A stretch of 37,854 nt of DNA from a virus, in the IMG/VR virus record IMGVR_UViG_3300035034_001821, positions 1 through 37,854 of that record. The stretch is one strand, 5' to 3'. The position numbers and the translations under genes were made by a program. The first letter of the stretch is position 1. Each line of letters opens with the position of its first letter. This document shows, one piece after another, positions 1 to 37,854 of the stretch. The notes below the pieces were generated by a model. It was not told the DNA's origin and searched no databases. It was given only the letters and a program-made list of their open reading frames with translations.

Positions 1-1376
1 ACAAGAATAGCTGTATGCCCATCTAGATCACTATCAACAGCCGTGCGCAAACTAGAGAAGAACGTAATCATTTCATCATTATCATTTTCATTTGCTGTAT
101 TAAAATTGGCCAAAGGATCCATAACAAGAATATCACACCCGCCGTTCTCAGGGGGGAATACCCGCTTAATATCAGCAACTATGCCTAATATGTGCTCAGG
201 GGTTAACCTTTCACGGTCCGGCGGCGTAATATATAGGCGCTCACTAATTTGAAGCGCATCATTGCGCGTGAATCCATAATCTTGCAACCGTTCACGCAGA
301 TAACTTTCTTGTAGCTCAGCTTGTAAAAAGTAAATATTTAAAGGGCGCTGTATTTTAAAATCCATAAAATCAAGGCCCATACAGGCGTGAAAGCATAAAT
401 TGATAAGGAAGTCAGATTTACCCACCTTCGGGGCGCCAGTAAGAAGCGTTATTCCTGCGGGTATGACAATACGGGGCCCGATAAGGTCCTCTTGCGGGTC
501 CGGCACAATATCATAAAAATCAAGAACAGACTTTGCAAAAGTTGGTATGTTAATTTTTTCCCGTAACTTTGCGCCCTGTAATAGGGACTTAATCACATCA
601 CCGCTACAATCCGCCGCATCATGTTTAGGCGGCAGAGTTGAGCAATCTACAATCTTAATAGGGCAGTCAAACTCTTGCAGAACCTTAATAACATTATCAC
701 TGAATGCCATTCCAGCCGTATCATTATCGGGCCATACTATTATTTTCTTGCCGGACAAGGGGCTCCAGTTGGTTTTTGCGCTTGCCTTTGATCCCCCAGC
801 GCAAGTAGTTGCAACATACCCTAAATCAATTAGGTGCTGGGCTGTCTTCTCCCCCTCGACAACGATCACATAATCAGACAAGCTAATATTGTCTAGATTA
901 TATAATGGCCTGCTTTCTTTTGGCATGCTGGGGATTTGCCTAAATTCTTTGCGAGGCTTAAGATCATCTCCCAATGACGGGAATCCATCAGAATCCACCA
1001 TATCATATCTAATTACATCAAACCCACGATACGACCATCTATCAACCTCTTTTCTTGATAGGTGTTTTTTATCATAGCCACCTTTAGATAATCCACTTAT
1101 CCCCAAATAATCCCCGATCTCTTTAAGGGTGTCTGATTTATTTATTCCCTTAACCTCCCCCCAAAGTTCAATTAAATCACCTTTACCATCATTTGAGAAA
1201 TCGGCCCATATTCCAGTATTTGAACCAGATACACATACTTTTAAACTTGAACCATGAGAGCCATTAACATCACCGCAAACCCATTCATTACCTTCTTTGC
1301 GGCCAGTTGGCAAAAGGTGCTGGGCTATACTTAAAGCTTGATTATTTAGCGCGTTCTTAATGGTTATAATGTCCAT
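1..1376 (-). CDS. Toprim/RepA-like primase-helicase, N-terminal 458 codons (gene continues at 37854)
   Basis: The minus frame opens at ATG 1376 and runs off base 1, then continues in frame from 37844 down to 37256, giving 654 residues once the circle is closed. The N-terminal ~80 residues resemble the degenerate zinc-ribbon region of phage primases but lack the usual cysteine set. A Toprim-like segment follows, with VVEGEK (Glu174) and WPDND about 35 residues later. Next is an AAA_25/RepA-type ATPase with Walker A GAPKVGKSD (Lys320) and Walker B DILVMD. The likely role is priming and unwinding at the replication fork; no polymerase is encoded. The leader contains CAACCAAGGA (1396-1387), shared with other early transcripts. 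The gene is transcribed divergently from the early operon at 1520. Confidence 0.88.
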   Translation of the reverse strand, partial: MDIITIKNALNNQALSIAQHLLPTGRKEGNEWVCGDVNGSHGSSLKVCVSGSNTGIWADFSNDGKGDLIELWGEVKGINKSDTLKEIGDYLGISGLSKGGYDKKHLSRKEVDRWSYRGFDVIRYDMVDSDGFPSLGDDLKPRKEFRQIPSMPKESRPLYNLDNISLSDYVIVVEGEKTAQHLIDLGYVATTCAGGSKASAKTNWSPLSGKKIIVWPDNDTAGMAFSDNVIKVLQEFDCPIKIVDCSTLPPKHDAADCSGDVIKSLLQGAKLREKINIPTFAKSVLDFYDIVPDPQEDLIGPRIVIPAGITLLTGAPKVGKSDFLINLCFHACMGLDFMDFKIQRPLNIYFLQAELQESYLRERLQDYGFTRNDALQISERLYITPPDRERLTPEHILGIVADIKRVFPPENGGCDILVMDPLANFNTANENDNDEMITFFSSLRTAVDSDLDGHTAIL

Positions 1377-1386
1377 TTTTAACTAA

Positions 1387-4940: not shown

Positions 4941-5126
4941 ATGGATGACAAATTACTAACAACGAAACAAGTCGCGGAACGCTTAACTATATCAGAGGTA
5001 ACTTTGAGGCAGTGGAGAATGCAGGACGTCGGCCCTAAATACATAAGATTAGGACATGGCAAAATGCCACCTATTCGTTATCGTTTATCTGATTTAGTCG
5101 ATTTTGAGAAAAAAGGCGAGAGCTAA
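4941..5126 (+). CDS. Excisionase/MerR-like HTH_17 DNA-binding protein
   Basis: 61 residues that make up almost exactly one winged-helix HTH_17 domain. It opens with LLTTKQVAERLTISEVTLRQW (helix-turn-helix, residues 5-25), then the wing IRLGHGKMPPIRYRLSDLVDFE. Such proteins act as excisionases or small transcription regulators. No integrase is present, so regulation is likelier. No clear Shine-Dalgarno precedes the ATG, and the predicted transcript begins at about the start codon, so it may be leaderless. Confidence 0.85.
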   Translation: MDDKLLTTKQVAERLTISEVTLRQWRMQDVGPKYIRLGHGKMPPIRYRLSDLVDFEKKGES

Positions 5127-20603: not shown

Positions 20604-20649
20604 CTTAATATTCTCCTTATTCAAATGGTTTATTTATTTTAATCCAAGA

Positions 20650-21582
20650 TTAGATTGTTGTGTTTACAATCTGAACTAGAACACCTTCTTTGCGCATGGC
20701 GTTGATCCAGAAATCAATAGTGATATCGTAAGAGTTCACTTTTGACGCACTTTTTTCAACTTCAATACGTCCAACTTCCATCGCCATAGCGATAGACATA
20801 GGAGCAAGAACCACACAATCACGTAGTGTTGCACCTTCTGGAAGGATTGGATTAGTTACTTGGATTCCACCGTTAACAGAACCAGCGAAAAGAACAACTT
20901 GATAATTAGCAGCGCTCTTTGCCACTGCATTTTCAGCAGAAGGCATAGAAACAATGTAATCATTGTTGATGAACTTATCATCGGCCATTAGGTCACTATT
21001 TTCTTTACCTGAAGCGCAAATCGTAGAACCACTAAAGTCTTGGTAAGGAATATCGTTATTAATGAAGTTTTCTGTTATCTTCTGAACAGTAGAGTAAACA
21101 AATCCAGCTGAACCATCAATCGTCAGCACACCATCGGCGGCAGCTGTGACAGATGAAGGGGCTTGATCTGGCGCACCAACAAGTACATCGCCAACAGCGG
21201 CAGAAATCGCAATGCGATCAATAACGCGCTCTTTAGCGTTTGTAAGCTGTTTAAGGATATCCGAAGTAGGGTCCTTTAAAAGCTCGTTGATATCGTACAA
21301 CGCATCGATTGTAACAGTACGTGTAAAGCGACGCTTGTTAAATTGACGGTTATCCAACGCATAGTCACCGAAAGCCTTATCAGGATTACGTGTATCAACT
21401 TCTGCAAGTTCGATACGACCAATGCGTGCCATGTTGTTTGTTTTACCCTTAGGGTTCAAAAACGTAACGGCGTTTGATGAAACTAAGCGTGACTTAGTTT
21501 GTTGAGCAAGTTCATAAAAGCTATCTTCAAAATTCAGTCTAGCACCCTGATCAATACTCGGATTAATAGTATTAGATGTCAT
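20650..21582 (-). CDS. Major capsid protein
   Basis: 310 residues. Segments LNFEDSFYELAQQTKSRL, NMARIGRIELAEVDTRNPD and RRFTRTVTIDALYDINELLKDP, then KERVIDRIAISAAVGDVLVG, match the HK97-fold podovirus capsid family (Phage_capsid-2 type); the central RxxFTRTV-ID-xD-xxxLL-DPTSD block is diagnostic. It is the only gene with its own terminator-promoter pair directly upstream, as expected for the most abundant protein. No frameshifted long form is evident. Confidence 0.85.
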   Translation of the reverse strand: MTSNTINPSIDQGARLNFEDSFYELAQQTKSRLVSSNAVTFLNPKGKTNNMARIGRIELAEVDTRNPDKAFGDYALDNRQFNKRRFTRTVTIDALYDINELLKDPTSDILKQLTNAKERVIDRIAISAAVGDVLVGAPDQAPSSVTAAADGVLTIDGSAGFVYSTVQKITENFINNDIPYQDFSGSTICASGKENSDLMADDKFINNDYIVSMPSAENAVAKSAANYQVVLFAGSVNGGIQVTNPILPEGATLRDCVVLAPMSIAMAMEVGRIEVEKSASKVNSYDITIDFWINAMRKEGVLVQIVNTTI

Positions 21583-28599: not shown

Positions 28600-31500
28600 T
28601 TATAACCCGTATTTGTTCATTAAGTATGTTGTGATGTCTGATAATTGACTGTCATCCTTAAGAACACCAAATGCCTTAACATCCATAGGTGTTGTACCAG
28701 CCCCGTTAAGTGCGCCAACACACATATTAGATAGATCAATTAAAATATCATCAACGCTCGTATTTGTGTCTATAGTCGTTCCATTAACTATTAGATTTAA
28801 CCTGTTGTCCTTAAGCTGAACCACATACAACGCATACTCTCCGTAGAACCCAGCCATTTGAGCGTAAGTTCCAGTCTCAATATCATCACTGTCATCATCT
28901 CTTGCATAGGCCGTAAACGTCTGATCACCTTGGTCATTACGCAAGAGCATCAAGTCCGTACCTGATTCATAGCCAGTAACCAACCTATTCTGGCCGGTTA
29001 ACCCTGTCGTATCAGACGTCTTGGCCAGAACAAGCATAATTAGCTCTGAGGATCCCGATATAGGCGTTGTACTTATAGGCACCTTTTGAAGTTGTGTCGT
29101 ATTGTTCGCAAAGGCCATAGCCCCGTCATCTGCAACAGTAAAGATTGGACGCTTAGATGTATCCGAATCAAGGCGGTTATTATCATAACTAGTAAGGTTG
29201 TGAAGCCCGATAACATCTTGGGTGGCGCCAACCGTGCTTGAGTCTGTAAACTTAACGTATCCCGCAGTAGTATGTAGATCGCTCTCATAAAATCCAACGG
29301 TTGCTGAGGTTAAAATATCACCATAATAGAATTTAGACTTTAATCCCCTTGCAGCTAATGCAAAGATAGAAGTCTCGTGACCTATTGTGTTATTGTTTGT
29401 CTGCTTCCAGTGAATCTCATCAACGATAAGCTGCTCACCAGTCAAGACATTCTTCGCGAAGTCATTATAAACTTCCGCACTTACAGCAGTGGCTACAGCC
29501 GCTTGACCCGCACGAATCTGACTCATCGCCACATCATCTGTCATATCAGCACCGCCAGCGAGCGTGGTATTAATAACGCCGGAGCCTACAATGTCCGTGT
29601 GCGTAAAGGGAAATGTAAGGTTTGTATCTGTATTCCACTGGTTGATGGTATTCTCAAAGTTAGCCTCATATTCAGCTTGATTTTGTACCGCAAGCTCAAT
29701 TAATCGCCCGTCATTCTCACCAATGTTCCAAACAGCCGTTACAGATGCAGGCGTAATACCATAAGCTGCCAATCTATCATATGCCGCGTTCAATGCTGTG
29801 CGCTTAGTTACATATATGCTGTCTGTGGCATTATCTATATTCCACGAGGAGCCCTGCCCCGCCGTGTGAAGCTCACGAACACAAGTTCCATCCTCTGCGA
29901 TATTAATTATAATAGGAATTCGTCCTGATTGGTCATACCAAGCAGCAGCCCAAGCCGGCCACATAGATCCATCACCGCCATCAATCTGTACATAATCAGT
30001 AGAGCTTGCGGACGGGGTGATAGTTGACTCCCACATATACCCTTGTCCCAACGGAATGGTTGGTGCAAGCAACGGCTCACCAGATTTACCACGACCATTT
30101 GATTGGCCCATAGAAACAAAGACATCATACGTAAAGGAGGATGGTAGAGGAATTAACCACTTATTGGACAAGTATGCGTTAACCCTAGATCGGGTTGCAT
30201 CATCAAGGGCATCGTTCGTTACAATAATCTCCGACACTTGACAATCAAGGAAGCTATCAGCCCCCCTGTTCGTTCCAATCCTTACGTCCTGTGTCGTATC
30301 AATATCCGTATTATAATCACTTACGGAGTTTACACTCTCAACACCATTAATGAAGAGTTTGGCCGTGTTATTATCAGAATCAAGACGATACTCATAAATG
30401 TTATGGATGTTCTCTTGATTCGTTTCACCATACTGAAAGTCTGTGTGGCCCGTAGCTGCGGCTCTATATAAGAACTCTGTGTTGCTTGATGTAGCGCCCA
30501 CTAATTCAAAATCATTCGTTGCATCCATCGAGAATAACCCGTCAGTAAAGGCGGACACCTCATTAACGTTAGCAACAATAAATATCGTCGTACTCACACC
30601 AGCTGTAAAGGCTGATTTTTGCAAGTATTGGGCTATGCCGTCGAAGTCAACCGTAGGCTTACCATTAAAGCCATCAATATCAAGTATAGGCTTATCATCA
30701 GCAGTCGATTGAATAAAATCATTACCAAAACCAGACTTATCAACCCACTTACTGATAGGATCGCCATTGCTGGCTTGGCCGGAAACAATACCGTTAGCGC
30801 TACCGACTGTGTTATTATCCGTTAGATCATTGTCGCTATGCGCGTCGGCTCTGGTGCCAGATACTTCGTTTAGATCCCAGAATGCCTTCATACTCGTTGA
30901 TGTTATTAGTTCGCCGGAGCAAGGGACATTACTTGAATATGTTGGGTTACCGTTCAAGACGATAGTGTAATTTCCTGTGTCGTCCTGTGCATTTCCTCTA
31001 AACTTAGCGTCAAGCTGCAAACTTGCATCAGAAACAGCGACACCGTTGAATAGGTTGGCCGCTTCCGTAGCTGTCAAAGCGCGTCCATAAACAAGCACAT
31101 TAGACATGAGAGCGTTCAAATACCTATCGTTAAGGTTTGGCCCCCTGCGTCCGATGTTGAGGTCTGCGCCAGATATGCCAATTACTGCGCCGGATGCAAC
31201 GGTGACATCAATACCATCCTGATAGATGGTAATTTCTCCCGCGGCCTTATCTATAACAACCGTGAAGTGGTGCCACCCCGTAATACCCGGATCGTTCGTT
31301 TTGGCGTCCGTAACTGCGGCGCTTTCCGAGTAAGCAACATACAGCCCGTGGATGTTGTTTGTGAAATATATGCCTTCGGCGTTATCGAGTGATCCATCGC
31401 CGCTAGATAAAACCATAGCCCCGCTAATGTTGTCTATGTTTAGCCAAAAGGCGTATGTTGTGACGGTGTTATCTTCGTGCGGGTTAAACCCTGCAACGCT

Positions 31501-32280
31501 GGCGTAATCATTTGTACCATCCAACGCCAGCGAAGACCCAAAGTTCTTCGTATCCAGTGACGGGCTTTGAATAGGTAATGCTGCTGCGGTGAGGTATGTT
31601 TGCCCCGCACCTGCATTGTACAGCGCTGTGCGCTCTGCGTCTGTTATCACGCGCTTAACCAATGTAGAGCTATCTAATGCGCCGTCATAATAATCAGTTG
31701 AATCGCCGTCCGCGCCCATAACAAATGGAACAGAGTTTGACAAAGAACCCACATCGGATACAGGGCCGTCAGCCGCTATATTGTCGACTAAAACATTATC
31801 AACATAAATGCTCATCTGTTGTTGAACACGGTCTAAGGTGCAAGAAATGTGCTGCCAAGACCCCGCCGAAATCGCCCCTGCGACAAAAGCGCGTGTTGTG
31901 CCGTCAGATATTAAGAAAACAATCGCACCGCCTACTCTATAAGCAAAGTAACCCGCGTCCGCTTGTTCATTGTGGGTGCTTTTCTTGCCGATAATAGCGT
32001 CAGTCCCCACAACATCATCAGGGTTCGTCCAGAAATTGAGCGTGAAGCTCTCGGTCCCGACATCAAGGCCATCTTGGGCCGCGTCCGTGATTGATAAGCT
32101 TTCGCTGTTCGAGGCCGTAAACTGAGCAGCGCCATCAGTGATGAGGGTGTCTGCTTCGTAAGCATCCAACCAAAGACTGAGGCCAACTAGATTAATAGGA
32201 GAGAATGACCCGCCACCATCTAGAAATCCTACTATATATGGACTGATAAAGTCTCTAATATAAGGAACTACGTATGGCAT
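28600..32280 (-). CDS. LamG-repeat/SGNH carbohydrate-esterase receptor-binding protein
   Basis: 1226 residues. A short anchor (1-50) is followed by three LamG/concanavalin-like units: ~55-230 (SFTLNFWTNPDD, SWQHISCTLDRVQQQMSIYVD), ~245-430 (YAFWLNIDN, GWHHFTVVIDKAAGEITIYQD) and ~510-715 (SGFGNDFIQSTADDKP). Then comes an SGNH/SASA-type esterase: GQSN (Ser727), GEND (855-857) and DEIHW (Asp954, His957). A fourth LamG-like unit ends the protein. It probably binds and de-esterifies host surface glycan. There is no signal peptide. It is transcribed between terS and terL, away from the tail-fibre gene. Confidence 0.85.
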   Translation of the reverse strand: MPYVVPYIRDFISPYIVGFLDGGGSFSPINLVGLSLWLDAYEADTLITDGAAQFTASNSESLSITDAAQDGLDVGTESFTLNFWTNPDDVVGTDAIIGKKSTHNEQADAGYFAYRVGGAIVFLISDGTTRAFVAGAISAGSWQHISCTLDRVQQQMSIYVDNVLVDNIAADGPVSDVGSLSNSVPFVMGADGDSTDYYDGALDSSTLVKRVITDAERTALYNAGAGQTYLTAAALPIQSPSLDTKNFGSSLALDGTNDYASVAGFNPHEDNTVTTYAFWLNIDNISGAMVLSSGDGSLDNAEGIYFTNNIHGLYVAYSESAAVTDAKTNDPGITGWHHFTVVIDKAAGEITIYQDGIDVTVASGAVIGISGADLNIGRRGPNLNDRYLNALMSNVLVYGRALTATEAANLFNGVAVSDASLQLDAKFRGNAQDDTGNYTIVLNGNPTYSSNVPCSGELITSTSMKAFWDLNEVSGTRADAHSDNDLTDNNTVGSANGIVSGQASNGDPISKWVDKSGFGNDFIQSTADDKPILDIDGFNGKPTVDFDGIAQYLQKSAFTAGVSTTIFIVANVNEVSAFTDGLFSMDATNDFELVGATSSNTEFLYRAAATGHTDFQYGETNQENIHNIYEYRLDSDNNTAKLFINGVESVNSVSDYNTDIDTTQDVRIGTNRGADSFLDCQVSEIIVTNDALDDATRSRVNAYLSNKWLIPLPSSFTYDVFVSMGQSNGRGKSGEPLLAPTIPLGQGYMWESTITPSASSTDYVQIDGGDGSMWPAWAAAWYDQSGRIPIIINIAEDGTCVRELHTAGQGSSWNIDNATDSIYVTKRTALNAAYDRLAAYGITPASVTAVWNIGENDGRLIELAVQNQAEYEANFENTINQWNTDTNLTFPFTHTDIVGSGVINTTLAGGADMTDDVAMSQIRAGQAAVATAVSAEVYNDFAKNVLTGEQLIVDEIHWKQTNNNTIGHETSIFALAARGLKSKFYYGDILTSATVGFYESDLHTTAGYVKFTDSSTVGATQDVIGLHNLTSYDNNRLDSDTSKRPIFTVADDGAMAFANNTTQLQKVPISTTPISGSSELIMLVLAKTSDTTGLTGQNRLVTGYESGTDLMLLRNDQGDQTFTAYARDDDSDDIETGTYAQMAGFYGEYALYVVQLKDNRLNLIVNGTTIDTNTSVDDILIDLSNMCVGALNGAGTTPMDVKAFGVLKDDSQLSDITTYLMNKYGL

Positions 32281-32605: not shown

Positions 32606-32695
32606 TTAGAAATTTCCACCTAAGTATCCGCTCAAAAGCAACGCGAAAATAACAACCACAGTCTCTATAGCCTGTCTAATGTGTGATGATTTCAT
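32606..32695 (-). CDS. Tiny membrane peptide overlapping terS
   Basis: 29 residues from ATG 32695, seven bases after AGGAGAGAAGG, a strong ribosome site lying inside the terS coding end. The first 20 bases overlap terS in another frame. One transmembrane helix (AIETVVVIFALLLSGYLGG) fills most of it. The ribosome site and hydrophobicity support a real gene, perhaps a holin-like or regulatory micro-protein. Confidence 0.55.
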   Translation of the reverse strand: MKSSHIRQAIETVVVIFALLLSGYLGGNF

Positions 32696-33122
32696 TTGCC
32701 TTCTCTCCTATGTCAAATTCAAGGGCAACAGATTCACCCGTTAAACTCTCAACAGTCACCTTACCCATCTCTGTTACGGTAAATTTATGCTCACTCACGT
32801 CTGTAAATAACTTCAAATGCTTGCCTAAAAGCTCTAAACCCTTAAGTGCTTGAGCGTATTCGCCAATAGATCGGGCCTCGACAGCAATTTCTTGTATATT
32901 ACGAAGCACATAGTCGGCTGTTATATACGTGCGGTTGCTGCGTGCAGCCATTTCTTTCGCTATTCTCTCTTTAATGTATGGCTTTTTAAGCAACTGACAG
33001 GCTCGAACACGCGCAGAGCTTGCAGCATAGCCCGCAGCTACAGCCGAACGAGCTCCGTTCAGGTCAATTATGTATTCTTCGCAAAATACACGCTGTCTAT
33101 CAGACTTTAAAGAATTAGCCAT
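32676..33122 (-). CDS. terS: Terminase small subunit
   Basis: 148 residues. The N-terminus has the Terminase_2 pattern: QRVFCEEYIIDLNGARSAVAAGY, then SSARVRACQLLKKPYIKERI, a helix-turn-helix DNA-recognition domain. It is followed by an oligomerising helix (AQALKGLELLGKHLKLF, ~87-103) and an acidic beta tail for TerL contact. It recognises the packaging site. It is 5.5 kb upstream of terL instead of next to it. The pac site usually lies in or near terS, which makes the non-coding region at 33566-33864 of interest. Confidence 0.85.
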   Translation of the reverse strand: MANSLKSDRQRVFCEEYIIDLNGARSAVAAGYAASSARVRACQLLKKPYIKERIAKEMAARSNRTYITADYVLRNIQEIAVEARSIGEYAQALKGLELLGKHLKLFTDVSEHKFTVTEMGKVTVESLTGESVALEFDIGEKANEIITH

Positions 33123-33124
33123 TA

Positions 33125-33499
33125 TTAATGTTCCGTTCTCTCTTTAGTTAACTGAACCTCAGACACAATAACATCGCCCAAAATTCGAGAATAAAAATCC
33201 TCTACCTTAGCATTATAACTCTCAACGGTCTTTTTAACAAGCTCATTACCCTCTTTAGTGATCTCAACAACGCCGTTAATTAGCTCTTTGTAAGTATCCT
33301 TGCTAGACTTATCATAATTAATGGCAATAATATCTATATTAAATCCATCCTCACCATCCTTAACGCGAACCATTAAGCGCCCACGAGGATCCAAAAGAAT
33401 AGCCTCAACAGATCCAGAGCCCTCAATTATATTTCCCTCTTCGTCTGCTCGTAAATATGTAACGAGTTTACCGATCTGTGGGTATTTTTGAGTTTCCAT
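33125..33499 (-). CDS. Unknown first gene of late operon
   Basis: 124 residues. An N-terminal SH3-like small barrel (IGKLVTYLRADEEGNIIEGSG, VEAILLDPRGRLMVRVKDG) is followed by a helical half (DTYKELINGVVEITKEGNELVKKTVESYNAKVEDFY). It ends two bases before the terS ATG. It starts ~30 bases after the predicted late promoter start. It is possibly a packaging or late-expression cofactor; no family recognised. Confidence 0.72.
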   Translation of the reverse strand: METQKYPQIGKLVTYLRADEEGNIIEGSGSVEAILLDPRGRLMVRVKDGEDGFNIDIIAINYDKSSKDTYKELINGVVEITKEGNELVKKTVESYNAKVEDFYSRILGDVIVSEVQLTKERTEH

Positions 33500-33536
33500 T
33501 TGTAATATTCTTTCTAAGTTAATCTATGTTTTCTCT

Positions 33537-33565
33537 AGTATAATACAAACAAATACATTACGCAA
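33537..33565 (-). promoter_or_regulatory. Late-operon promoter
   Basis: On the minus strand TTGCGT (33565-33560), 17 bases, TATACT (33542-33537). The -10 is good and the -35 weak, so an activator may be needed. The expected start near 33530 gives a ~30-base leader to the gene at 33499. It heads the long minus-strand block. Confidence 0.6.
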
Positions 33566-33609
33566 GTCCAAGTATCCAGTATCCATATAGGCTTAAAAGT
33601 TTCCTTTTC

Positions 33610-33660
33610 CTAAAAGACATCGACTTTGTCTTTTAGAACTTTTAGCGTGTCTTTTAGAAC
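33610..33660. repeat. Inverted and direct repeats with TTTTAG core
   Basis: CTAAAAGACA (33610-33619) and TGTCTTTTAG (33627-33636) are a perfect inverted repeat with a 7-base loop. TGTCTTTTAGAAC (33627-33639) is repeated exactly at 33648-33660, a 21-base period or two helical turns. A partial unit TTTTAGCG stands between them (33640-33647) and recurs at 33840-33847. Confidence 0.85.
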
Positions 33661-33734
33661 AACCCCTTGAAATCATTGTGGCTTTTGGGATGTGGTTTTT
33701 AGACATTTTAAATCCCCTAAAACCCTTGCAGGGG

Positions 33735-33763
33735 TTGACTTTGACTAAAATTCGTGCTATTAG
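33735..33763 (+). promoter_or_regulatory. Orphan extended -10 promoter inside the non-coding region
   Basis: TTGACT (33735-33740), 17 bases, TATTAG (33758-33763) preceded by TGC. It matches the early promoter style of this phage. No open frame follows; the transcript would start near 33770, run through three hairpins and then lie antisense to the gene at 33865-34092. Confidence 0.55.
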
Positions 33764-33769
33764 GTCAAG

Positions 33770-33844
33770 GGTTGACGACCCGAGCCCCTCAAGGGGCGGT
33801 CTACCTAGACCTAGGTATCTAATGTGTGAAACATATCCTTTTTA
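33770..33844 (+). ncRNA. Candidate structured small RNA
   Basis: Downstream of the orphan promoter the RNA could fold as GGGU-UGACG-ACCC (33770-33782), GCCCC-UCAA-GGGGC (33784-33797), UACCUAG/CUAGGUA (33802-33817) and AUGU/ACAU (33822-33834), ending in CCUUUUU (33837-33843). Closely packed stems plus a terminal U-run suggest a short stable RNA, an origin transcript or an antisense leader. The last stem is weak. Confidence 0.42.
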
Positions 33845-33864
33845 GCGTAAAAGATACATTCTTA

Positions 33865-34092
33865 CTAAGCGCTAAGCTCAGGCTTAACATCATCTCTGAA
33901 TACATATTGGTAATGGTTAGTATGCACAATCACGTTAACTAGTGTTAGTCCCTTTAGCTTCATATCCTCAATATAAGCATCGCCAAAGGCTCTACAATCA
34001 GACTTATCGAGATCCACATGCCATAGTAAATCAGCGCTCATATTATTATCATTGGTCACTAAGTATTCAATGTTTTCTGTATCGTATAACAT
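33865..34092 (-). CDS. Small unknown protein in the control region
   Basis: 75 residues behind AAGAAGAGGA. It is acidic, with a beta-alpha look (EYLVTNDNNMSADLLWHVDLD, LTLVNVIVHTNHYQYVFRD). It has its own minus-strand promoter and is the only gene between the late block and the right early operon. That is the position of a control gene in many phages, although no HTH is visible. The leader contains CCCAACCTAAAG, a variant of the shared motif. Confidence 0.68.
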   Translation of the reverse strand: MLYDTENIEYLVTNDNNMSADLLWHVDLDKSDCRAFGDAYIEDMKLKGLTLVNVIVHTNHYQYVFRDDVKPELSA

Positions 34093-34120
34093 AATTAATC
34101 CTCTTCTTTAGGTTGGGTAC

Positions 34121-34150
34121 ATTTTAAGTATCACATATATTTGTTAACAA
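34121..34150 (-). promoter_or_regulatory. Promoter of the 33865 gene
   Basis: On the minus strand TTGTTA (34150-34145), 18 bases, TAAAAT (34126-34121). The -35 lies in the palindrome TTGTTAACAA (34141-34150). The spacer is one base over optimum. The ATG is ~22 bases past the expected start. Confidence 0.5.
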
Positions 34151-34189
34151 TGGGTTAAGTAGTTATTTGTAATTAATTGTAATTAATTG

Positions 34190-34217
34190 TTGACAACATA
34201 TTAAGGTATGGTAACCT
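34190..34217 (+). promoter_or_regulatory. Promoter of right early operon
   Basis: TTGACA (34190-34195), 16 bases, TAACCT (34212-34217) preceded by TGG. The exact decamer GTATGGTAAC (34206-34215) is shared with the promoter at 4906-4934. AAGG/CCTT arms around it (34204-34219) form an operator-like imperfect palindrome. The leader contains AACAACCAAAGGA (34224-34236). Confidence 0.6.
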
Positions 34218-34242
34218 TATCTTAACAACCAAAGGATTTAAA

Positions 34243-34928: not shown

Positions 34929-34929
34929 A

Positions 34930-35679
34930 ATGACAAAGATAATCACACACAAACTACTTATATCATGGGATCCTTGTCCATATTTCTACAAGAGGTACTG
35001 CCAGCTATTTCCTAAGGGCGCGGATTTAAAGAGTGCCGTTGATGGTCTTCTGGCAGATGGTCATAGAGATTGGGCGGCATGGCTATTCCATGAATGTAGG
35101 GAAAAGAACCTATTCACCGAATATATTAAAGGATTTCGCAACGCGGGCTACGGCAATAGAGGCGCCTATAATGCTGGTCACTGCAATACAGGCGCCTTTA
35201 ATACAGGTAACAATAATACAGGCGCCTTTAATACAGGTAGCAATAATACAGGTAACTGCAATACTAGTTACCGCAATACTGGTTACGGCAATGCAGGCGC
35301 CTTTAATACAGGTAACTGGAACACAGGTGATTATAATACAGGTCACTGCAACAGCATCACACCAGATACCATCCTTGTTTTTAATAAGCCTTGCAAGAGA
35401 GAAGATTGGAATAGGGCTGACAAGCCTCACTGGATGCACGCGTATCTCACTGATTGGATTTGTGAATCCGATATGTCAGACAAGGAAAAAGAGTTATACC
35501 CATCATACACCAAAGAACGTGGTTATCTGAGAGTTTATTTATCACTCAAGCATGCGTATGTTGAGGCATGGGAAGAAGCTAGCCCCGAAGATCGAGAACT
35601 AACGCGTAAGCTACCTAACTTTGATGAGAAGGTTTTTGAAGAGGTGTTTGGATTTAACCCTTGGAAGGCCACATCATGA
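34930..35679 (+). CDS. Pentapeptide-repeat (NTGxx) protein
   Basis: 249 residues. An N-terminal ~68-residue helical unit (LLISWDPCPYFYKRYCQLFPKG, HRDWAAWLFHECREKNL) is followed by 14 consecutive pentapeptides of form N-(T/A/R)-(G/S)-x-x (71-140), then a ~105-residue C-terminal domain starting ITPDTILVFNKP. The repeats are of the Pentapeptide_2 type and would form a short right-handed beta helix. Similar three-part proteins occur in phages and prophages without a proven role. DNA mimicry, known for other pentapeptide proteins, is conceivable. Its end overlaps the next gene by ATGA. Confidence 0.85.
   Translation: MTKIITHKLLISWDPCPYFYKRYCQLFPKGADLKSAVDGLLADGHRDWAAWLFHECREKNLFTEYIKGFRNAGYGNRGAYNAGHCNTGAFNTGNNNTGAFNTGSNNTGNCNTSYRNTGYGNAGAFNTGNWNTGDYNTGHCNSITPDTILVFNKPCKREDWNRADKPHWMHAYLTDWICESDMSDKEKELYPSYTKERGYLRVYLSLKHAYVEAWEEASPEDRELTRKLPNFDEKVFEEVFGFNPWKATS
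35140..35349 (+). repeat. 15-base tandem repeats encoding the pentapeptides
   Basis: Fourteen 15-base units with recurring AATACAGG blocks; the pair CAGGCGCCTTTAATA recurs three times. The DNA similarity means copy number can change by unequal recombination without loss of frame. Confidence 0.85.
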
Positions 35680-35999
35680 AAATATCTAATGATAAAAAAC
35701 GACTGGGAGTTAAGATAGATGAAACTATGACTGCTCCATCCCTATTAGACAAACTGCGCCTCCTTCCGCACGGAGATGCCGCTAAATTTATTCGCCGTGA
35801 AATTGACCCACATTGGGGGCTAGGTAGGGACTCAAGCGCCAGAGTTGCTCGCGTTACTTTTGAGAAAACTCAAACATGCTTAGTGGGCGTGATTGCTGAA
35901 AGCGAAAAAGAGGCCGAGGACAAGATAAGGAAATTGCCTCGAGATGACATGAGCATTCTAGATGAATACGAGGAAATCACCCAAATAGTATTTTTTTAA
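35676..35999 (+). CDS. Unknown protein, coupled to the pentapeptide gene
   Basis: 107 residues from ATG 35676, overlapping the previous stop (ATGA), with GGAAGG upstream. A central basic segment (DKLRLLPHGDAAKFIRREIDPHWGLGRD) precedes an alpha/beta stretch (CLVGVIAESEKEAEDKIRKLP). No family recognised. Confidence 0.7.
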   Translation: MKISNDKKRLGVKIDETMTAPSLLDKLRLLPHGDAAKFIRREIDPHWGLGRDSSARVARVTFEKTQTCLVGVIAESEKEAEDKIRKLPRDDMSILDEYEEITQIVFF

Positions 36000-36028
36000 T
36001 TAACAAACGTAAACGAAGGATATAAATA

Positions 36029-36691
36029 ATGTTACAAGCATTTCATAACGAAAAAGAAGTTAAAGACAAGTATGTTAACCGTGTTATCGCACATCGCAAG
36101 GCTGATAATATTATACAAGGCACTGGGTGGGAAGAAGGAAAGGGCTGCGCGGTTGGCTGCACACTGGAAAGATACACCCATGAAAGTTATCCTATTGAAT
36201 TGGGAATACCTGAATGGTTGGCTCATCTTGAAGATACCTTATTTGAAGGTATGGAGCAAAAGGATGCGATGGTATGGCCTGAGAATTTTCTTAAAGCTAT
36301 TCCTTTAGGTGTGACCGAGGACCAGTTTGATAAAAATGTTAAGCGACCCTTTATGATATTTATACTTGAGGGGCTATTCCATAACTTTGATATTGAGGAA
36401 TACCCCGAGATTGCGGCGGTGATTAAAGATGTGATTGCTTTACACAAAAGAGGTGATGTAACCAACGACGAGTGGAGAAGCGCAAGGTCAGCAGCAGCAT
36501 CAGCAGCAGCATCAGCATCAGCAGCATCAGCAGCATCAGCATCAGCAGCATCGGCAGCATCGGCATCGTCATGGTCAGCATCAGCATCAGCAGCATCAGC
36601 AGCATCAGCAGTATCGATAACGGCAAGGACAGAGGCCTACAAACAATACGCGGATAAATTAATTGAACTACTCGAACAAGCGCGCGGATAA
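36029..36691 (+). CDS. Phage protein with Ala/Ser microsatellite
   Basis: 220 residues behind GAAGGA. The first ~150 residues form a globular domain (GTGWEEGKGCAVGCTLERYTHESYPIELGIPEWLAHLEDTLFE broken across 33-76). Residues 154-196 are only Ala and Ser except one Trp and one Val, then a helical tail (EAYKQYADKLIELLEQARG). Proteins of this type with Ala/Ser/Tyr stretches occur in several phages; no role is known. The repeat lies in slippage-prone GCA/TCA codons, so length variants are likely. Confidence 0.8.
   Translation: MLQAFHNEKEVKDKYVNRVIAHRKADNIIQGTGWEEGKGCAVGCTLERYTHESYPIELGIPEWLAHLEDTLFEGMEQKDAMVWPENFLKAIPLGVTEDQFDKNVKRPFMIFILEGLFHNFDIEEYPEIAAVIKDVIALHKRGDVTNDEWRSARSAAASAAASASAASAASASAASAASASSWSASASAASAASAVSITARTEAYKQYADKLIELLEQARG
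36488..36616 (+). repeat. GCA/TCA trinucleotide repeat tract
   Basis: Forty-three codons drawn mainly from GCA and TCA in the gene at 36029. All alternative frames across it lack stops, so single-base slips would still be read for a distance. Confidence 0.9.
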
Positions 36692-36702
36692 GGGGCAACA
36701 AG

Positions 36703-36828
36703 ATGACAGCTAAAGACGTATTAGAAAAACTTAACGAAATTCCACATATACAGGGCAGATCAAGCACAAACCTAAAGCTAAGGCAAGATTTGAGAAGAGC
36801 CCTCCCCCAACAAAAAGAAAGAGAATAA
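36703..36828 (+). CDS. Small basic helical protein
   Basis: 41 residues from ATG 36703 (GGGGCAACAAG upstream) to a stop directly followed by the next ATG (TAAATG). Sequence such as DVLEKLNEIPHIQGRSS and LKLRQDLRRALPQQKERE is helical and basic. The exact junction with the next gene supports it. Confidence 0.6.
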   Translation: MTAKDVLEKLNEIPHIQGRSSTNLKLRQDLRRALPQQKERE

Positions 36829-37149
36829 ATGATTGAATTTTACAACAGAATATCACCATCCGAAGTATTAATGTTCGCCCTAGCTTTGAATACGGCTATA
36901 GCTATTTACCTAGCTATAGCCCTTCATCTTATGTCTAGTTCGGTAAATGACTGGAGAAGGGCCTACAATAGGGTTTTTAAATATTGGTCTATATCTCAAG
37001 AGGAGTTTGAGTTTTTGCATAAAAACTCCCAACCAATAAACCCTAAAACAAAAAGATTTATGAGTAAGCATGAGTGGTACTTTGAGTTCTTTGCTCCCTA
37101 TGCGAGTGAGTTGAGGGAGCCTCATGATGGGAAACCTAATAAATTTTAA
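36829..37149 (+). CDS. Single-span membrane protein
   Basis: 106 residues from ATG 36829. One transmembrane helix at ~13-35 (VLMFALALNTAIAIYLAIALHLM) with a short outside N-terminus, then a charged C-terminal domain (NDWRRAYNRVFKYW, KHEWYFEFFAPYASELREP). It may act at the inner membrane during early infection. No family recognised. Confidence 0.7.
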   Translation: MIEFYNRISPSEVLMFALALNTAIAIYLAIALHLMSSSVNDWRRAYNRVFKYWSISQEEFEFLHKNSQPINPKTKRFMSKHEWYFEFFAPYASELREPHDGKPNKF

Positions 37150-37255: not shown

Positions 37256-37854
37256 CTAGAGCTTTTGCATAACCCCAGAATCAGGCGACAGCATATGAGT
37301 TGCTTCAATTATTTCACCTTGGTTGGTTTTTGTATTGGCTGTCACTAAGTACCCTTTTGATCTATTGGGCAACTCATCCACCCTAAACGGGAAATCACTT
37401 TGAATAAAGCGTATATCTCCATTTAAGGCCAAATCATCAATGGCGCGCTCGACGGTTCGGGCCCCTAGGTTGAGTAAATGCGACTCAACAAGGTACGCAG
37501 CCATTGCATTGCGTGTCTTCATTATATTTTTAAGTGCCAAACCCTCAATATTAGATAAGATTTTATAATGCTTATCTTCTAATTTAAGTTTGTTCCTCTT
37601 TTCTTGGCGCGTCATGCCTGCATCATGTTTCGAAATTATCTCCCATTTGCCATCTCTTTTATCGACAACCCAAGGATCTATGCCGCGACCATTTCGGATC
37701 TCAAAAGCAAGCTCCCGCATGCCTTCGCGCTCGTACATAACAATCCCAGTATCATATAACCCCTGCAGAGAGCTAGCGCCACGCATAGACTGGTGCGGGT
37801 CATCTTGAACCGCCTCCTTTGTCTTTTTCCCTGTATGGTGGGATACAAGAATAG
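37256..37854 (-). CDS. Toprim/RepA-like primase-helicase, C-terminal part (continues from base 1)
   Basis: The minus frame enters at the window end and stops at 37256. Joined with 1-1376 after removing the repeated ten bases it gives the end of a 654-residue protein. The first residues after the junction, AILVSHHTGKK, are the conserved His-His motif of RepA-type ATPases that follows Walker B, direct proof of the join. The C-terminal ~110 residues (RNAMAAYLVESHLLNLGARTVERAIDDLALNGDI broken here into parts) look like a winged-helix tail, as in many phage RepA-like proteins. Confidence 0.88.
   Translation of the reverse strand, partial: ILVSHHTGKKTKEAVQDDPHQSMRGASSLQGLYDTGIVMYEREGMRELAFEIRNGRGIDPWVVDKRDGKWEIISKHDAGMTRQEKRNKLKLEDKHYKILSNIEGLALKNIMKTRNAMAAYLVESHLLNLGARTVERAIDDLALNGDIRFIQSDFPFRVDELPNRSKGYLVTANTKTNQGEIIEATHMLSPDSGVMQKL
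37845..37854. repeat. Window-end overlap identical to bases 1-10
   Basis: ACAAGAATAG occurs at 1-10 and 37845-37854. With the reading frame and protein motif running across the joint, this is best read as the overlap of a circular assembly, not a biological terminal repeat. Confidence 0.85.

Follow-up and report, generated by a model that had tools for sequence, protein, structure and literature searches.

A hexamer array near terS as a probable iteron-type replication origin in a phage with a TOPRIM primase-helicase

Few phage replication origins have been mapped, and they are seldom annotated in metagenomic phages. PICI origins, for which plasmid replication was tested, always hold an AT-rich melting site between two sets of iterons, a layout described as absent from all other known bacterial replicons (PMC6092414). 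As we propose here for a phage, the PICI/SaPI rep-ori combines clustered, replicon-specific short iterons with a phage-type primase/helicase initiator, and its layout of two sets around an AT site is seen in most of the relatives that we compared. Satellite P4 (alpha/ori-crr) likewise has replicon-specific short iterons read by a phage-type primase/helicase initiator. The locus described here differs from both in having no AT tract between two groups of repeats and in an array that stands apart from the helicase gene. Additionally, its protein is of the TOPRIM + AAA_25 type, unlike PICI Rep and P4 alpha.

The window, that is, the whole 37,854-nucleotide stretch of DNA analysed (IMG/VR record IMGVR_UViG_3300035034_001821), also bears comparison with other systems. 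The closest annotated relatives of its helicase in named phages are the Wolbachia WO 'RepA' proteins, which recalls RSF1010-type RepA/RepC; however, no RepC-like initiator was recognised in the window, and the repeats here are of 6-8 bp, whereas RSF1010 iterons are direct repeats of ~20 bp. A lambda O-type origin has its counterpart in one relative, G007, where six TGCTAGCA palindromes (20622-20814, or L163 2622-2814) lie inside a 202-aa replication-protein gene (phrog_26426), followed by a DnaB-like helicase, making this a lambda-O-like origin candidate. In contrast, the window array lies outside coding sequence, and the window yielded no O-like gene. As with the pac sites of SPP1 and P22, the window array lies near terS, but across the relatives neither array location nor motif tracks terS.

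We conclude that the gap at 33500-33864 is probably an iteron-type replication origin, or the portion of one that an initiator binds, based on the clustering of its repeats, the fixed place of arrays in relatives, and a motif and location that appear to follow the replication module. An iteron-type origin is a known kind of element, and what is of interest here is the turnover of the repeat at a fixed position.

The IMG/VR record is treated as linear, with identical first and last 10 bases (1-10 and 37845-37854), and joining the ends keeps open one long leftward frame that encodes a 654-aa TOPRIM + AAA_25 primase-helicase. Thus, this overlap and the restored frame make it very probable that the window represents a podophage genome assembled completely as a circle of about 37,844 bp. 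The original prediction, made from the letters alone, had supposed a RepA-type helicase, which was correct in kind. Leftward from the site lie structural genes (portal, capsid, terminase and large tail proteins), and the early and recombination genes point mostly rightward. A 1226-aa virion protein gene (28600-32280) lies between terS and terL, where L024, L026 and L028 have no room for it. The cumulative GC-skew minimum, which had been put forward as a check, does adjoin the site (34.1 kb), but it is confounded by gene orientation, which diverges at that point, so we do not weigh it as strong evidence. Features of the locus are listed in Table 1.

Table 1. Coordinates of the proposed origin and its neighbouring features in the window
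Feature	Position	Strand	Remarks
Primase-helicase, N-terminal two thirds	11-1382	-	Gene crosses contig ends; PF13481 E 8e-18, Toprim
Primase-helicase, C-terminal third	37256-37854	-	End overlap, open frame
Terminase small subunit terS (Terminase_2)	32676-33122	-	phrog_51 E 1.7e-27; PF03592 E 3.6e-23
Small gene conserved beside the site in relatives	33125-33499	-	Predicted Tudor/SH3-like barrel plus long helix, model pLDDT 88
Non-coding gap, proposed replication origin	33500-33864	.	Between terS operon and small leftward ORF; no conserved ORF
Putative terS-operon promoter	33537-33565	-	TTGCGT, 17 nt, TATACT; 8/12 matches by eye, below scan threshold
Iteron array, eight exact TTTTAG/CTAAAA	33610-33845	.	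236 bp
Hexamer positions	33610, 33631, 33640, 33652, 33697, 33717, 33745, 33840	-, +, +, +, +, -, -, +	
Perfect 10-base inverted repeat CTAAAAGACA / TGTCTTTTAG	33610-33636	.	33610-33619 / 33627-33636, 7-base spacer
13-base direct repeat TGTCTTTTAGAAC	33627-33660	+	Two copies (33627, 33648), start-to-start 21
GC hairpin GACCCGAGCCCCTCAAGGGGCGGTC, then TACCTAG-AC-CTAGGTA	33776-33817	.	Hairpin 33776-33800; palindrome 33802-33817
Small ORF beyond the gap	33865-34092	-	Homologue in L022

The repeats that first drew attention to this region, namely at least eight hexamers in ~240 bp, a perfect inverted repeat, a direct repeat at a spacing of 21, a GC hairpin and a near-palindrome with two perfect 7-base arms, were all recovered as described. 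The 365-base gap (63% AT) holds 8 of the 40 TTTTAG copies in the window, against 2 in the remaining 1781 bp of intergenic sequence. As the genome-wide count equals chance (40 observed, 42.2 +/- 6.8 expected), it is the clustering and not the total that is unusual, and the clustering is confined to this place, with at most two copies per 240 bp elsewhere in the window. In 100 dinucleotide shuffles, a stretch of the array's size reached a maximum of 5 copies of TTTTAG and of 6 for any hexamer. Other hexamers form equally strong clusters within coding sequence, near 35.2 kb (35185-35335) and 36.5 kb (36494-36599), in repeats that belong to a pentapeptide-repeat protein and an alanine-rich protein.

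The hairpins admit a different explanation, in which this part of the site is a structured RNA, a terminator or another non-replicative element and the hexamers are incidental. Single-strand folding energy at the site does beat shuffled sequence (z -2.8 on the + strand and a significant -4.0 on the - strand), and the GC hairpins lie downstream of the leftward ORF at 33865-34092. A scan of the site against Rfam gave no match at E<=1, tRNA and terminator scans there were empty, and neither the hexamer cluster nor the arrays of relatives would be accounted for, so we consider this explanation extremely doubtful. The hairpin part (33776-33817) may nonetheless also belong to the transcript end of the leftward ORF.

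Relatives were obtained by two viral-contig scans, one with a portal and one with a terminase alignment; scans of the same kind with the protein of 33125-33499 alone, the 1226-aa protein or the helicase returned none. The gene order in these relatives runs from a homologue of 33125-33499 through, usually, terS to terL and portal. Twelve or more phages have a member of this unannotated family beside terS, and its Tudor/SH3-like model was built from an alignment of twelve copies, with weak fold matches when the predicted model was compared with other structures.

A whole-record scan for clustered 7- and 8-mers, not aimed at the site, placed a leading cluster just before the start of the 33125-family gene in seven relatives (G003, G005, G006, G010, G011, L024 and L028). 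The motifs are ATGGCAGA (TGGCAGA) in G003, ACGCAGA in G005, TGTAAACA in G006, GTGGGACA in G010 (whose record has its strongest cluster elsewhere), ATTATGCG (ACGCATAAT) in G011, AATAAAA in L024 and AATAAACT in L028. L031 has four CGCAGA within a short upstream stretch. Motif density in the array regions is at least 8-fold over the rest of the record, for motifs chosen after inspection. The proposed comparison with related phages thus bore out the position of the array in most of them, but not its sequence, as the repeat motif differs by phage. An insertion-sequence transposase-like sequence, seen by eye, lies just upstream of the repeats in L024 (240-1440).

Most of these arrays have AT-rich DNA between or next to the repeats. 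A 40-mer of 97-100% AT lies among the repeats in G003, G005, G006, G011 and L024, and in the first four no other place in the record is as AT-rich. Repeat orientation mostly flips across the AT tract in G005, G010 and L024, and an AT tract between repeat groups is present or nearly so in G003, G005, G006, G010 and L024, as well as in Bdellovibrio phage phi1422.

Some observations count against an origin. The window array has no 97-100% AT tract of the kind found in these relatives (its best 40 bp reach an AT content of 0.80 in the gap and 0.85 at 34163, neither outstanding in this genome), and the end of the helicase gene is ~3.5 kb away. Additionally, the k-mer scan gave no convincing array at this place in G009, L026 or L027, the upstream sequence of L026 being short, which also counts against it. 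G009 (41120 bp, end overlap 121) has neither a recognisable large primase/helicase gene nor a strong repeat array.

The original prediction left a choice between an origin and a pac site, and comparison with the relatives favours the former. If TerS bound the repeats and packaging began there, or if this were a cos-side terminase-binding site, an array 0.5 kb upstream of terS would be well placed, the circular assembly would be compatible with headful packaging, and the fast divergence of terS among relatives would be as expected of a protein whose target changed. However, G007 has a terS (44% identical to that of L028) and a 33125-family gene with no array in the ~70 bp before the latter; its repeats lie in the replication-protein gene instead. 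By terS, G003 stands closer to L028 (48%) than to G005 and G011 (39-40%), but in its repeat it goes with the latter two, and L028 has a different one. Outside the trio of G005, G011 and L031, the closest terS pairs have unrelated motifs. We therefore give the pac half of the prediction little probability.

Arrays appear instead to follow the replication module, judging from comparisons across the relatives. G003, G005 and G011 have TOPRIM primases that are 55-70% identical and similar repeats (TGGCAGA, ACGCAGA and ACGCATAAT), and in G010 a VapE-type helicase gene adjoins the array. The G005/G011/L031 trio alone is not decisive because their terS are also close; G007, with an O-like initiator gene that contains its repeats, is the more informative case. 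Against an origin, the viral-contig helicase scan and the comparison of relatives' primases gave no relative with the helicase of the window, so that the pairing of motif and helicase is drawn from other phages. By analogy with the relatives, the window array appears to behave as part of its replication module. Neither a DNA-level search of named phages nor a search of viral contigs for the exact inverted-repeat pattern returned a match.

Named phages with related primases (27-34% identical) extend this pattern. Arrays with an AT tract inside or close by occur in Bdellovibrio phi1422 (GGTAAC, directly 3' of the primase gene), Serratia MQ-4 (GTAAC), Bordetella PY223 (CGTAAC) and Microcystis Mwe-JY13 (GGTAAT). 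In blastp of the large terminases of these four phages and the window, only those of MQ-4 and PY223 are related, with phi1422 and the window weakly so. The arrays of phi1422, PY223 and Mwe-JY13 lie away from terS, which again argues against packaging. In P8625, whose primase-helicase is 23% identical to that of the window over 408 aligned positions, a TATCGGCA array lies directly 3' of the primase-helicase gene and runs across the record ends. Five repeats after a RepA-like gene in Wolbachia WO (L180) were set aside, as they may be simple tandem repeats. The origin half of the prediction thus gains from the shared place of the arrays among relatives, from motifs that track the replication module, and from a like layout beside homologous primases in phages whose terminases are mostly unrelated.

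The same comparisons bear on the possibility that the TTTTAG repeats are operators, bound by a phage transcription regulator of the terS (late) operon promoter or of the leftward small ORF. In favour, a possible promoter (33565-33537) adjoins the array, the stretch at 34093-34242 is a divergent early promoter region, and a small DNA-binding protein is encoded (an HTH_17 protein at 4941). Arrays of this size, with 7-12 copies spread across 300-600 bp about an AT tract, would be unusual for operators. Moreover, G007 has terS and the 33125-family gene with its array inside the replication-protein gene instead, and related-primase phages have arrays without such a terS context. We regard an operator function as unlikely.

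If the gap is an origin, the phage would encode an initiator that binds at the TTTTAG repeats and distorts or opens the DNA, and the TOPRIM + AAA_25 primase-helicase would then be loaded for replication. The initiator may be the window's own replication protein, perhaps through the C-terminal third of the primase-helicase by analogy with P4 alpha. Folded as a single sequence, this C-terminus gave a pLDDT of 37 with no recognisable winged-helix domain, and its comparison with solved structures returned no match. Strands would open here, with the AT-rich stretch at 33521-33560 or that at 34093-34242 as candidates.

More tentatively, in this group of podophages the non-coding stretch preceding the 33125-family gene and terS may be a fixed origin place, where the matching iterons of an acquired replication module usually land. 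The PICI-type order of iterons, AT tract and iterons would then be widespread in ordinary phages with TOPRIM primase-helicases. Where the place is kept while the repeat changes with the replication module, an origin and its cognate initiator would become predictable in pairs from sequence, and such phages would form natural sets for testing the evolution of initiator specificity.

Comparison loci chosen on terS (L002-L020) were distant and had no TTTTAG cluster. L022, from sample 3300035698, was rejected as a deciding case as its terminase and helicase differ from those of the window and it too has no TTTTAG cluster. The early region that it has in common with the window (34929-37149, L022 6000-7510) reaches up to 96% DNA identity, which suggests a recent exchange. 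The small ORF at 33865-34092 has its homologue at 5493-5732 of L022, flipped relative to the same neighbouring early genes.
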